A DNA stretch of 61,521 bases, taken from NCBI RefSeq assembly GCF_022662575.1, contig NZ_JALBFU010000009.1:28206-89726 (forward strand). Reading direction: 5' to 3'. Positions 48,903 through 55,702 of the stretch are shown piece after piece. Source of the DNA: Luteimonas aquatica (lineage in GTDB: Bacteria; Pseudomonadota; Gammaproteobacteria; Xanthomonadales; Xanthomonadaceae). Position numbers and translations under genes: made by a program. Each line of letters begins with the position of its first letter. Positions within the stretch are counted from its first letter, which is position 1. Under the pieces are notes generated by a model. It did not search any database. It had not been told where the DNA came from and was given only the letters and a program-made list of their open reading frames with translations.

Positions 48903-50171
48903 CTAGAGCGGTCCGGCGATCGCGGTGCGCCAGGCCTGCGGCTGCAGGTGCTCGCTGAGCACACGATTGAGTTGCGCGTGGGTGACGGCCATGGCACGGG
49001 GCTCGAACGCCAGCAGCGCATCGCGGGGCCAGCCCCGCGCGGCGGCCGACAGGATCGCCTCGCTCAGGCCGTCCAGTGTCGCCAGCCCGATCTGGAAAGC
49101 GCCGATGGCGGCGCGCCGCGCCGCCTCGAATTCCTCGCCCTCCGCTCCGCCGGCCACGAAATCGGCGACGACCGCGCGCGTGGCCTCCAGCGCAGCATCC
49201 AGTTTGCCGGGACTGGCGGACAATCCCACCTGCCAGTGGCCGCTGCCGCGGCGCGGAGCGACGAGTTCGGAGCGGATGAGATAGCTCAGCCCGCACCGCT
49301 CGCGCACCTCGCCGACCAGGCGCGAGGCGAAGGAGCCGCCGAGGATGCGGTTGGCCAGCTGCAGGGCGAGATAGTCCGGATGCGCGGGTTCGAGCCGCAG
49401 CCGCTGTCCGAGCGCGACGCCGAAGCTCTCCTGCCCCGGCAAGGGGACCCGTGTCGTCGTCGGCGCCTCCTGTCGGGGCGCTTCCGGCATCGCCGCATCG
49501 ACGGCGGATGGCGGCCATGCCGCGGTCTCCGCCTCGATCACGCGGGCTGCTGCCTCGGGATCGAGATCCCCGACCACCGCGATGCGCAGATCGTTCGCGC
49601 CGTAGTGCGCGCGATGATAGCCGCGCACGTCGGTGGCGGTGCACGCCTGCAGTTGCGCGATCTGCGCCGGGACCTCGTCGACATGCAGGGGATGTCCCGG
49701 CGGATAGAGCAGGCGTGTCAATGCATCCGACGACGAAGCGCCCGGATCGACGGCGCGATACTGCAACTCCGCCATCAGGCGCGCGCGCTCGGCCTCGACG
49801 CGTGCCTGCTCGAACGCCGGTTCGCGCAGGCAGGCCATCAGCAAACCGACGACCTCCCGGAAGTCGGCGACGCAGGCACGCACGGAAAAGCGCACCTCCC
49901 CCGCGCCGGACTCGATCGACAGGCGCGCCCCGCGCGCCTCCAGCAATTCGGCGATCTCGAAGCCGCCGTGCCGGCCACCGCCGCTGGCCGCCAGCGCAGC
50001 GGTGAGGCGCCCCAACACGGATTCGCCGCGCAGGGCGGCGGCGCCCGTGCGGAACGCTCCGCTCAGCGCGAATATCTCCGGCGCATCGACGCGCAACCCA
50101 TGGAACTCGCCGTGCGCGAGCCCGAACGTGGTCACCGGCGCCGGTTTCGGCAGGACCGCCTCGATATTCAT
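48903..50171 (-). CDS. M16B peptidase-like subunit without zinc motif (partner)
   Basis: A 422-residue M16-fold protein lacking HxxEH. It keeps the substrate-binding features of the non-catalytic half, such as GGSFASRLVGEVRERCGLSYLIRS with the Arg/Tyr pair. Such proteins form heterodimers with a zinc-bearing M16 subunit; the PqqF/PqqG and AlbE/AlbF types process ribosomal peptides. It overlaps the zinc subunit gene by ATGA (50168-50171) and is the last gene of the putative peptide operon. Predicted cytosolic; no signal peptide visible. Role in leader removal is inference from context. Confidence 0.85.
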   Translation of the reverse strand: MNIEAVLPKPAPVTTFGLAHGEFHGLRVDAPEIFALSGAFRTGAAALRGESVLGRLTAALAASGGGRHGGFEIAELLEARGARLSIESGAGEVRFSVRACVADFREVVGLLMACLREPAFEQARVEAERARLMAELQYRAVDPGASSSDALTRLLYPPGHPLHVDEVPAQIAQLQACTATDVRGYHRAHYGANDLRIAVVGDLDPEAAARVIEAETAAWPPSAVDAAMPEAPRQEAPTTTRVPLPGQESFGVALGQRLRLEPAHPDYLALQLANRILGGSFASRLVGEVRERCGLSYLIRSELVAPRRGSGHWQVGLSASPGKLDAALEATRAVVADFVAGGAEGEEFEAARRAAIGAFQIGLATLDGLSEAILSAAARGWPRDALLAFEPRAMAVTHAQLNRVLSEHLQPQAWRTAIAGPL

Positions 50172-51457
50172 TGCGTCGCCGTGTCCCGATCCTGGCCGTC
50201 CGCGAGGTATCCCACGGTGAGCGCGCGCTCGGTCAGATAGCGGCCCGCCACGCGCCGGAGGTCGGCGGCCGTCACCGCGCCGATCCGGTCGACCGCCGCG
50301 GCGTACAGCCGCCAGTCGCCGGCTGCGATGGCCTCGTTCAACTGCATGGCGATGGCCAGCGGCCCGTCGCGCGAGGTCAACAGCTCGCCGCGCGCGCGGG
50401 CTTTGGCGCGCGCGAGTTCCTCCTCAGCGACGCCGTCGCTGCGAACGTCCTCGATCGCCTCGCGCATCGCCTGCTCCACCTGGCGATGCGCGCGCTCCCG
50501 ATGCACGACGGCGCCCAGCTGCAGGAGGCCCGGTTCGCGGAGCCGCGACACGGCCGTCCAGGTCTCCGAAGCCAGACCGGCGGCATCCAGGCGGCGGTGC
50601 AAGCGCGACAGCCGGCCGCCGGCCAATACCAGCCCCAACAGCTCCAGCACATCGAGATCGGCGTCGGCGCCCGCCGGCGACTTGTAGGCCAGCATCACGA
50701 TGCCGGGCGCTCCCGGGCAAGCGACCGTCACCCGGCGCTCGCCCGCCTGCACCGGTTCGGGCGGGGTCGCTTGGGGCGCGCCACCGGCAGCCGCGATGGA
50801 CGCGAATCGCCTGTGCACGATGTCCATCGCCACCTCAGACTCGACGTCGCCGATGACGGCGATCGTGGCGTTGTCCGGCCGGTAGTGCGTGCGGTAGTGC
50901 GCCAGCAGGCGCGCGCGCTCGAATGCCTGGATGTCCTCGCGCACGCCCATCACCGGCGTGCCGTAGGGATGCCGGGCGAAGGCGGCGCGCCAGACCGCCT
51001 GGTGCAGTCGTTCGAGCGGATCGCCGAGGTGGCGGTCGTATTCGTTGAGCACGACCGCCTTCTCGGTCTCCAGGTCCGCCGCGTCCAGGCTCAGGTCGCA
51101 CATCCGGTCCGCCTCGATCCGCGCGACCAGATCCAGGCCCTGGCGCGGCACGAGGGAGAAGTAATGGGTGCGGTCGTACCAGGTGGTGGCGTTGACCTGC
51201 GCGCCCAGCGGCAGCAGCTGCTGATGGATCGAGTTGCCGTGTCGCCTGTGGAAGCGCGCGCTGCCCTTGAACATCATGTGTTCGAGCATGTGGCTCGCGC
51301 CGCGCATGCCCGGCGCCTCGTGCCGGCTGCCGACCTCGTAGGTCAGCATCAGCAAGGCCACCGGCGCGGCGCGCACGGGCAGGTGCAGCAGGCGCAGGCC
51401 GTTGTCGAGGCGATGTTCCTCGAACCCAGCCGTCTCCGATCGCCTGCCTGCCGTCAT
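50168..51457 (-). CDS. M16B zinc peptidase, catalytic subunit
   Basis: A 429-residue M16 peptidase with the inverted zinc motif HMLEH (His56, Glu59, His60) and a third ligand Glu at about 132 (ETEKAVVLNEYDRH). The first domain starts GFEEHRLDNGLRLLHLPV. It is coupled to the zinc-less partner downstream and lies 14 bp after the MATE gene. In this cluster it most likely cuts the leader from the modified precursor peptide. No signal peptide, so cleavage would be in the cytosol before export. An alternative is a general processing protease. Confidence 0.9.
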   Translation of the reverse strand: MTAGRRSETAGFEEHRLDNGLRLLHLPVRAAPVALLMLTYEVGSRHEAPGMRGASHMLEHMMFKGSARFHRRHGNSIHQQLLPLGAQVNATTWYDRTHYFSLVPRQGLDLVARIEADRMCDLSLDAADLETEKAVVLNEYDRHLGDPLERLHQAVWRAAFARHPYGTPVMGVREDIQAFERARLLAHYRTHYRPDNATIAVIGDVESEVAMDIVHRRFASIAAAGGAPQATPPEPVQAGERRVTVACPGAPGIVMLAYKSPAGADADLDVLELLGLVLAGGRLSRLHRRLDAAGLASETWTAVSRLREPGLLQLGAVVHRERAHRQVEQAMREAIEDVRSDGVAEEELARAKARARGELLTSRDGPLAIAMQLNEAIAAGDWRLYAAAVDRIGAVTAADLRRVAGRYLTERALTVGYLADGQDRDTATQ

Positions 51458-51471
51458 CCGCGCCTGCCCCG

Positions 51472-54419: not shown

Positions 54420-55559
54420 TCAGCCGGATGCCCGGAACGTCAAGGTGAACGGCGGCGGCGCCATCGCGGCGGCGATGGTGGGACGGTCGCCCCGCACGGC
54501 GACGGTCGCGTCGCCAAGGCCGCGGATGCTCTCCAGCATGTCGGCGACCAGTTGCGTCGCCAGCTCCGCCGCCACGCAGCGATGCGGGCCGTGGCCGAAA
54601 GGGATGAAGGCCGGATTGCGCCAGGCCTGCGGGTCCGCCCAGCGCTCGGGCCGGAACTCCGCCGGCGAGGACCAGTGGGCCTGGTTGCGCTGGACCAGGT
54701 AGGGACAGACGACCACCTCGTCGGAGACGTCGACCCGCACGCCTGAGATCTCGTGCGCCTGCACCGGACGTCGTCCGAGCTGCCAGGCCACCGGCCACAG
54801 GCGCAGCGCTTCCTGCACGATCCATTCGGCGGGCGCGTCGCGGCGCGGATGCGTTCCCCACAGGTACACCGACCAGGCGAGCACGAAGCCCACCGATCCG
54901 GCGATCGCGAACAGGAACGACAGGAAGACCTCGGCCAGTTCGTCCAGCCGCTGCCCCGGCTCGGCCGCGCCGGCGACGATATCCAGGATGTCGGCCGGCG
55001 GCGTTCGCGCCTCGCGCTGTCGCGCCGCGATCGCGCGCGAAAGCTGCAGCGTGGTGTTGAACTGCAGCAGCATGCGCCGCCATCGCGGCTGGCGCGCGCG
55101 GGCATTGGCCAGCACCGAGCGTTCGACCAGCTGCTCGAACAGCCGCCGCAACGACTGCGGCCGATCGGGAGCGAGCAGCACCGGCGACAGGTAGCGGTAC
55201 GCCAGCCAGTTCCCCGCGTCCGGCCATTGGCTGGTGGAAGCGAGCCGGTCGCGGATGAAATCGCGCAGCGCGCCCGGCGCGCGCGCGTCGAGAAAGGCCC
55301 GCAATAACGCGCGCGCCTCGCGGCGCATTTTCAGCTGCGCCGAGCGCGGCTCGAAATATCCGTGTCGGGTATGGAAAAAATCGGAGTGTTCGAGATAGCT
55401 GCCGTCGGCGTTGCGCAGCACGGAGCGGGCGTGGTCGGCGTCGCCCAGGCAATATTCGTTCTGGCCGGTCTGCACGATGCCGTCGCCGTCGGACAGCCTC
55501 CGATCCAGGAACCCGAGCGGGTCCCGCTGGAAATCGGGCCAGACCTCTCCCTTCAACAC
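54420..55559 (-). CDS. Cytochrome P450, first gene of the peptide cluster
   Basis: A 379-residue P450, short for the family. The haem loop is FGHGPHRCVA (Cys about 328), with Ala for the last Gly of FGxGxxxCxG. ExxR is QEALRLWP. The I-helix reads FAIAGSVGFVLAW, without the Asp/Glu-Thr pair. The start is GTG 55559 with GGAGGG only 3 bp upstream; the TTG one codon later has better spacing. It is the first gene after the promoter at 55673-55702. With the second P450 it probably oxidises the precursor's aromatic residues. The two P450s are not close duplicates by eye. Confidence 0.88.
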   Translation of the reverse strand: MLKGEVWPDFQRDPLGFLDRRLSDGDGIVQTGQNEYCLGDADHARSVLRNADGSYLEHSDFFHTRHGYFEPRSAQLKMRREARALLRAFLDARAPGALRDFIRDRLASTSQWPDAGNWLAYRYLSPVLLAPDRPQSLRRLFEQLVERSVLANARARQPRWRRMLLQFNTTLQLSRAIAARQREARTPPADILDIVAGAAEPGQRLDELAEVFLSFLFAIAGSVGFVLAWSVYLWGTHPRRDAPAEWIVQEALRLWPVAWQLGRRPVQAHEISGVRVDVSDEVVVCPYLVQRNQAHWSSPAEFRPERWADPQAWRNPAFIPFGHGPHRCVAAELATQLVADMLESIRGLGDATVAVRGDRPTIAAAMAPPPFTLTFRASG

Positions 55560-55672
55560 ACGCCCTCCGATCCTGAATCACGGGTGTTGTCGCGACGACG
55601 CATTTTGTGGACGGTGACGTCGTTCGCGTTCCTGAAAATACCGGAATATTTATCGCCGATGCCGTCGAATCG

Positions 55673-55702
55673 AGTATAGGTTCGCTTTCTTCGGAGCGTC
55701 AA
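55673..55702 (-). promoter_or_regulatory. Sigma-70-like promoter of the peptide cluster
   Basis: On the minus strand TTGACG (55702-55697) and TATACT (55678-55673) are separated by 18 bp, close to the consensus. Transcription would start near 55665, giving a leader of about 105 bases before the first P450. The surrounding 55620-55720 is clearly AT-richer than the genome average. Confidence 0.7.

Follow-up and report, generated by a model that had tools for sequence, protein, structure and literature searches.

What is made by a short peptide gene that lies between two different cytochrome P450 genes and is followed by genes for an exporter and two peptidase-like proteins? Such a locus occupies positions 48903–55702, on the minus strand, of a 61,521-nucleotide stretch of the Luteimonas aquatica genome (contig NZ_JALBFU010000009.1, positions 28,206 to 89,726), called the window in the following. 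Read along the minus strand, it comprises a promoter-like site, a first P450 gene (P450_1), a precursor open reading frame (ORF), a hairpin, a second P450 gene (P450_2), a MATE-family transporter gene, a gene for an M16 peptidase with the zinc motif HMLEH and a gene for an M16 homologue without HxxEH. The original prediction had proposed this order on one strand for a probable new cluster of the ribosomally synthesized and post-translationally modified peptide (RiPP) type, and every part was found in its place. We conclude that the locus is very probably a RiPP cluster, in which both P450s would likely cross-link the tail of the precursor while the M16 pair is predicted to remove its leader and the MATE protein to carry the product out of the cell.

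The evidence for this comes mainly from the peptide. The precursor gene (54173–54274, minus strand) has AGGAG nine bases 5′ of its ATG and encodes the predicted 33 residues, MKKVICAMRAAFGVRGASGCGITSWRWVIYHNI, consisting of a leader (approximately residues 1–16, MKKVICAMRAAFGVRG), a linker (17–24) and the tail WRWVIYHNI (25–33). In related genomes (G and L numbers denote genomes and fetched loci), 24 precursors of 30–38 residues were found across 11 genomes with both P450s: one each in the window, Lysobacter sp. Root76, G059 and G029, two each in G1214 and G648, three each in Lysobacter sp. cf310, L. silvisoli, G1182 and G337, and four in G1298 (Root76 and cf310 each appeared under two identifiers and were counted once). 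The peptides lie between the P450 genes or, in G648, directly before them. They were selected by the tail pattern W-x-W-x-x-Y-H, which by itself sets W-9, W-7, Y-4 and H-3 (counted from the C terminus) in 24 of 24 and would let copies with another tail escape. Independently of this pattern, tblastn with the window peptide hit identical places. Relatives with both enzymes and no conserved peptide, which would have spoken against the prediction, were not encountered, since the peptide with this tail is present in 11 of 11 genomes. A short leader-core precursor linked to its P450, as in other P450-modified RiPPs, is thereby found throughout the two-P450 clusters.

Outside the selected positions the tail is also conserved, with R-8 in 22, N-2 in 21 (His in two, Thr in one) and I-1 in 22 of the 24 precursors; Asn-Ile follows W-x-W-x-x-Y-H in 21, and position -5 holds eight different residues. 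The leader hardly changes among close relatives; the segment that follows it, up to the tail, varies in both length and sequence. Six gapless copies (15 pairs) gave ratios of nonsynonymous to synonymous change (pN/pS) of 0.10 for the leader, 0.53 for the linker and 0.28 for the tail. Of 3309 small ORFs in 427,785 bases, 30 fit the leader pattern, each of them one of the precursors described here; as the pattern was derived from these peptides, this speaks for its specificity and is no independent proof. Searched as degenerate DNA (with YHN-Ile only), the tail occurred in one of 369 class-sampled genomes, the window's own; neither the reversed control nor another cluster-bearing genome was among the matches from these 369. 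Since the peptide type recurs in all two-P450 clusters and its tail DNA is this rare, the association of peptide and cluster exceeds chance.

These features also bear on a rival explanation, in which the substrate of the P450s is a small molecule and the peptide a small accessory protein. In favor of this, neither a redox partner nor another RiPP-specific enzyme is among the six proteins tested. However, a variable linker between fixed leader and tail, tandem diversified copies (up to four per cluster) and paired proteases are the usual anatomy of RiPPs and not of an accessory protein, and we regard the accessory-protein explanation as very unlikely.

A different role is suggested by the hairpin behind the precursor (54131–54161, minus strand; 11-pair stem 54161–54135, then TTTT), between this gene and P450_2. 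The original prediction had called it terminator-like: the fold bears this out, whereas the terminator scan, whose rule is five T, did not list it. RNAfold gave a strong hairpin at most 48 bases past the stop codon in 20 of 24 precursors. In 16 of the 24 downstream regions, picked by eye for alike shape, ten of 12 aligned pairs show compensatory changes, and the hairpin is likely an attenuator or an RNA stabiliser. A short ORF with two Trp, a Tyr and a His codon directly before a conserved hairpin could be a regulatory leader peptide through which P450_2 is attenuated. Nevertheless, the N-terminal 16 residues are under the strongest purifying selection, precursors occur in up to four tandem copies, four of 24 copies are followed by no strong hairpin or an interrupted one, and single-P450 clusters, whose tails are different, have a similar leader. 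We therefore consider a purely regulatory peptide extremely unlikely and retain the RiPP precursor reading.

How would two P450s act on one peptide? P450_1 (54420–55559, minus strand; 379 residues, GTG start) and P450_2 (52868–54100, minus strand; 410 residues) both match the Pfam p450 profile as predicted (E 2.9e-20 and 9.8e-22), and the heme Cys and ExxR are invariant in both. They form separate groups in a midpoint-rooted tree, P450_1 with a support of 1.0 and P450_2 with a node of 0.445, which leaves the exact root of P450_2 unsure. AlphaFold2 models reached a mean predicted local distance difference test (pLDDT) score of 83.7 for P450_1 and 89.4 for P450_2. The P450_1 model has an ordinary P450 fold according to Foldseek and VIA-align (first rows 7wzm and 3el3); P450Blt (9bw8) is row 17 of the Foldseek matches, and PDB 9ULW, of which P450_1 is a full-length relative by sequence (E 4.4e-81), is not among the matches listed by either program. 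ApyO is the RiPP family listed by NCBIfam for both enzymes, with scores of 57.6 and 62.6 bits where the cut-off is 525. The I-helix region of P450_1 enzymes has an invariant G-S-x-G (G220-S221-x-G223); most P450_2 enzymes have GSPG there and that of the window has ASPG, and P-G is invariant among them. Monooxygenases usually carry an acid-alcohol pair at that position. With the register judged by eye and its meaning drawn from general knowledge, the two motifs fit coupling better than hydroxylation.

Relatives with a single P450 suggest how the bonds may be divided between the two enzymes. Of 297 family-sampled genomes, 14 have P450_2, eight of them together with P450_1 and six in a more distant form (33–36% identity). 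P450_1 was absent from the 20 kilobases (kb) fetched around P450_2 in these six; in addition, G107, G272, G342 and G362 are not among the six P450_1 matches of the order sample (at most four candidates scored per genome), whereas for G1202 and G1332 the statement covers the 20 kb only. All six carry a small peptide gene 181–265 bases before the start of the matched P450_2 (L081 8859–8957 and L086 9067, plus strand; L087 10182, L088 11253, L089 10911 and L090 11012–11113, minus strand), and no M16, MATE or P450_1 match lies nearby in these loci. The genes encode five distinct precursors: MARLLRAARVAMNIHPNETSSLWKTWPLWVEF (in two genomes), MARLMRATRVALNIHPNEKSSLWKVWPYWVEF, MKRFARALRVTLNIHPNEKSSVWNTWPLWVEF, MTRLIRALQVSLNLRSDNSTQCIRSKYRYWNIF and a peptide with a GTG start that reads SNLIRAVQVSLNMRANNSTQSIRSKYIYWILF after its first residue. 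Their tails follow [W/Y]xxWxxF, with an aromatic residue at -7, W at -4 and F at -1, and their last twelve residues contain no His. The leader pattern fits four of the five; the SNLIRAVQVSLNMRANNSTQSIRSKYIYWILF peptide has Met at position 14. The reverse case is G235 (L030 1952–5815, minus strand), where a P450_1-type gene has the peptide MKRIMSSMFTALSIRRKDNWYMWYYYHNM right behind it, with the tail WYMWYYYHNM; a methyltransferase and a TldD/TldE-type pair (two PmbA/TldD-family genes) replace the M16 and MATE genes, and P450_2 was not found elsewhere in this 83%-complete genome. The tails thus suggest a division of labour in which YHN[I/M] goes with P450_1 and an aromatic pair at i,i+3 with P450_2. 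Because the single-P450 relatives of either enzyme have a similar leader register, one leader type may be read by both P450s.

Removal of the leader and export are assigned to the remaining genes, which the original prediction had named correctly. The M16 peptidase with HMLEH (50168–51457, minus strand; 429 residues) and the M16 homologue without HxxEH (48903–50171, minus strand; 422 residues) are encoded by genes that overlap by four bases. Among PDB entries, each protein is best matched by a different subunit of the 3AMJ heterodimer, the active subunit for the former (5.5e-50) and 3AMJ_B, the "zinc peptidase inactive subunit", for the latter (6.3e-30); the homologue without HxxEH is likely the partner subunit of the zinc M16. 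Loss of HxxEH in the second of two adjacent M16 proteins and its presence in the first, the mark of paired M16 peptidases, holds in ten of ten clusters with M16 genes. Both proteins score far under the cut-offs of the NCBIfam families YfmH, YfmF and PqqF. The transporter (51472–52845, minus strand; 457 residues) matches Pfam MatE (E 1.7e-35) and, with 135.6 bits, stays under the NCBIfam matE cut-off of 147.4; its gene begins 22 bases behind P450_2. MATE and both M16 proteins are kept in ten of the 11 two-P450 clusters; in G029 they are on the opposite strand and still adjacent. Together with the 24 precursors, this conservation supports the predicted RiPP cluster with two P450s.

From gene content, conservation and covariation we infer each chemical step of the following pathway. 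The leader would dock on each P450 in turn. P450_2 may join W27 to Y30, an aromatic bond between residues i and i+3, as P450_2-only clusters have [W/Y]xxWxxF tails. P450_1 may join the Tyr-His end (Y30/H31), probably with W25, since Y-H-N goes with P450_1 and is absent from P450_2-only precursors. The M16 pair would then cut near the conserved V-R-G and the MATE protein would export the product. With the two bonds so assigned, the product would be a fused bicycle with a mass 4 Da below that of the linear form. The calculated [M+H]+ of WRWVIYHNI is 1286.679 for the linear form, 1284.664 with one cross-link and 1282.648 with two; for residues 17–33 the corresponding values are 1962.964, 1960.949 and 1958.933. 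The hairpin may keep the enzymes encoded downstream at a lower expression level than the precursor.

It is also conceivable that only one of the P450s cross-links and the other performs a different oxidation, for example a hydroxylation or a further reaction at the ring already formed, which would give a monocyclic product. Each P450 type occurs alone with its own precursor, so that one enzyme can suffice, and the ApyO family, to which NCBIfam weakly likens both enzymes, is a RiPP P450 that makes one bond. On the other hand, the two-P450 tails keep W-9, a third aromatic position, and His in 24 of 24 each, beyond the -7/-4 pair, and the I-helix motifs described above fit coupling. We judge a monocyclic product unlikely, though well worth considering beside the two-ring product. 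A broader version of the two-ring reading would have two distantly related P450 families around one shared leader, used singly or together, with P450_2 making an i,i+3 Trp/Tyr ring and P450_1 a Tyr-His ring; combined, they would yield fused bicycles from arrays of up to four precursors in which the linker and one ring residue vary and the frame of the two rings stays fixed. This generalization is tentative, and we give it somewhat less than an even chance. If true, nature would have a modular system for stapling peptides into two rings on a frame of Trp, Tyr and His.

Several observations weigh against the two-P450 RiPP reading or parts of it. The sole P450_1-only case, G235, comes from an 83%-complete genome and a 5.8 kb contig, so a second P450 could be missing. 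The G235 tail also has i,i+3 aromatics (W-10, W-7, Y-4), the pair assigned to P450_2, and the second half of the tail rule is therefore weaker than the first. The precursors of the single-P450 clusters were chosen by eye among several small ORFs. Plasmid NZ_CP139046.1 of Streptomyces sp. KN37 encodes a distant P450_1-type enzyme (29% identity) with Tyr-rich peptides, and tail type is therefore not strictly tied to the P450. These peptides (L033 8674–8766 and 8819 onward, plus strand) are two in tandem, of 30 residues each, upstream of the P450_1-type gene; their tails, WHGYFVGYGQQN and RNQYGDRYGHNA, have Y at -9 and -5 and no W-x-x-Y-H-N, and they are absent from the feature table. In G648, no MATE or M16 gene lies near the P450s and an ABC transporter is found instead, so MATE and M16 are not essential to the class. 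The hairpin is weak, interrupted or missing after four of the 24 precursors (G1298_3, G1182_1, G1182_2 and G648_1), and among eight genomes compared, G1182 and G1214 have no comparable promoter-like site.

As a separate observation, the Embleya plasmid NZ_CP108785.1 has a P450_1-type gene followed by a 23-residue peptide (L032 10147, plus strand) whose last residues are WNPKDPW. Neither this peptide nor the KN37 peptides fit the leader pattern, and they were left unused as precursors of this type.

Is the cluster new, as had been claimed? The AtropoFinder study (PMC11450843) describes atropopeptides (the tryptorubin family) by a precursor with a KSLK-type motif, gives xWxxYx as the core of Xanthomonas members, reports proteases near these and mentions one case, laurentirubin B, with two P450s acting jointly. 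Measured against this description, the present peptides are similar in their short precursor with an N-terminal leader and a C-terminal aromatic core that would be cross-linked by a P450; R-W-V-I-Y-H of the window fits xWxxYx, and W-7 and Y-4 are present in 24 of 24. However, a KSLK-type motif is found in none of 30 precursors (24 from two-P450 and six from single-P450 clusters), and the window differs by two P450s of different clades, the M16 pair, the MATE protein and a tail ending in His-Asn-Ile. Biarylitides (PMC12951456 and PMC13417212) derive from five-residue precursors encoded by 18 bp genes; their P450 cross-link can use Tyr and His, as is predicted for our peptides, whereas the precursors here have 30–38 residues, including a leader of about 16, and are no pentapeptides. 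In the aminopyruvatide pathway (PMC13192836), the precursor is likewise a longer peptide, and the P450 ApyO links aromatic residues close to its C terminus. In contrast, both P450s of the window remain below the ApyO cut-off, no multinuclear non-heme iron-dependent oxidative enzyme (MNIO) is among the six cluster genes tested, and the window precursor ends in Ile, not Asp.

Among solved structures, only PDB 9ULW comes close. Its 376-residue chain can be aligned over the entire length with the G648 enzyme of the P450_1 type (L031 10621–11775, minus strand), which is 40% identical to P450_1 of the window. The chain and the G648 enzyme differ in one residue, position 62, where G648 has F and 9ULW has G. 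The residue is His in ten of the 11 two-P450 clusters, including the window, and Phe in G648; 9ULW is probably an engineered variant. The G648 cluster itself differs from that of the window in its ABC exporter and the lack of MATE and M16 genes nearby, and its precursors end in WRWVMYHHM and WFWMLYHHM. Since 9ULW is one residue from an enzyme of such a cluster, the class is already under study by someone. In the openly licensed literature we found no paper mentioning 9ULW, only unrelated papers on a YHNI tail with a P450 and no description of the gene combination; papers on mining of P450-modified RiPPs (by title, Nam 2023, He 2023, Hu 2023 and Liu 2024) fall outside this scope and could mention the class. 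The claim of novelty therefore holds for the combination of genes and is qualified by 9ULW for the enzyme. On the sequence evidence, our verdict is that the cluster represents a real, new variety among P450-modified RiPPs.

The genomic setting bears on the gain and loss of the cluster. It is flanked by xerC and, at its opposite end, by hslV-hslU. A search of 52 genomes of the same genus gave hslV in every one, and among the loci fetched from 30 of them, 22 have xerC in the same stretch, which is read as the empty site; in L039 the two matches are approximately 230 bases apart. The eight loci that lack xerC include that of the window itself, as expected when the site is occupied, and two of the other seven have shorter stretches (2239 and 2355 bases). 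The cluster also lies between xerC and hslV in Root76 (L001), cf310 (L002), L. silvisoli (L028) and G1298 (L082); in the stretches fetched from G059, G1182, G1214, G029, G337 and G648, xerC and hslV are both absent. At E ≤ 1e-25, P450_1 is patchily spread, with six of 397 order-sampled and two of 398 phylum-sampled genomes, the window's own included; samples around G648 and G337 returned those genomes alone (one of 197 and one of 147). None of ten further genomes of the same family had P450_1, in a type of search whose empty result carries no weight. Among the matches listed, P450_1 relatives occur in Myxococcota, Thermoanaerobaculia and Herpetosiphonaceae, and P450_2 relatives in Streptomyces, Amycolatopsis and Lentzea; the listed relatives of the two P450s also include Saccharothrix. 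P450_1 of G029 is identical to the enzyme of Luteimonas sp. JM171 across the 350 residues compared. The simplest reading of these patterns is gain and loss of the cluster as a unit. Cluster and window have the same GC content (0.705), and that of the precursor gene is 0.549.

Two further elements lie on the minus strand 5′ of the coding regions. The predicted promoter, TTGACG-18-TATACT (55702–55673), was present upstream of P450_1 in a promoter scan, as one site against 0.4 expected. Comparison of eight of the 11 two-P450 genomes gave a site of the form TTGAC[G/A], a 17/18 spacer and [T/C/G]ATA[C/T]T at 135–143 bases 5′ of P450_1 in six, including the window, with the -10 variants TATACT, CATACT and GATATT. 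The second element, GGCGTAAACGC (54311–54321), is conserved upstream of the precursor; among the 24 precursors it is exact at eight and has one or two changes at five more, 42–47 bases before the start codon. It includes the inverted repeat GCGT-AA-ACGC and spans several genera (the window and L001, L002, L018, L028, L029, L082 and L084). A role of GGCGTAAACGC as a wider operator was rejected, as its single exact copy in the window's own 3.83 Mb genome is at chance level for an 11-mer and gives no sign of a regulon. The sole Rfam match in 52700–56000 (20.1 bits against a cut-off of 70) was taken as chance.

In the sources consulted, known P450-made ribosomal peptides mostly rest on one cross-linking P450, whereas here one precursor lies between two P450 genes. 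The predicted product, a small cross-linked peptide, would add a two-enzyme variety to this group, and the two P450s would be natural enzyme pairs for building two-ring peptides. The single-enzyme relatives with their similar leader permit a direct test of which enzyme makes which bond, and the precursor arrays, with a fixed frame and a variable loop, may serve as ready-made libraries. Finally, the cluster ties a paired M16 peptidase to P450-modified RiPPs; one relative has a TldD/TldE-type pair at the corresponding position.

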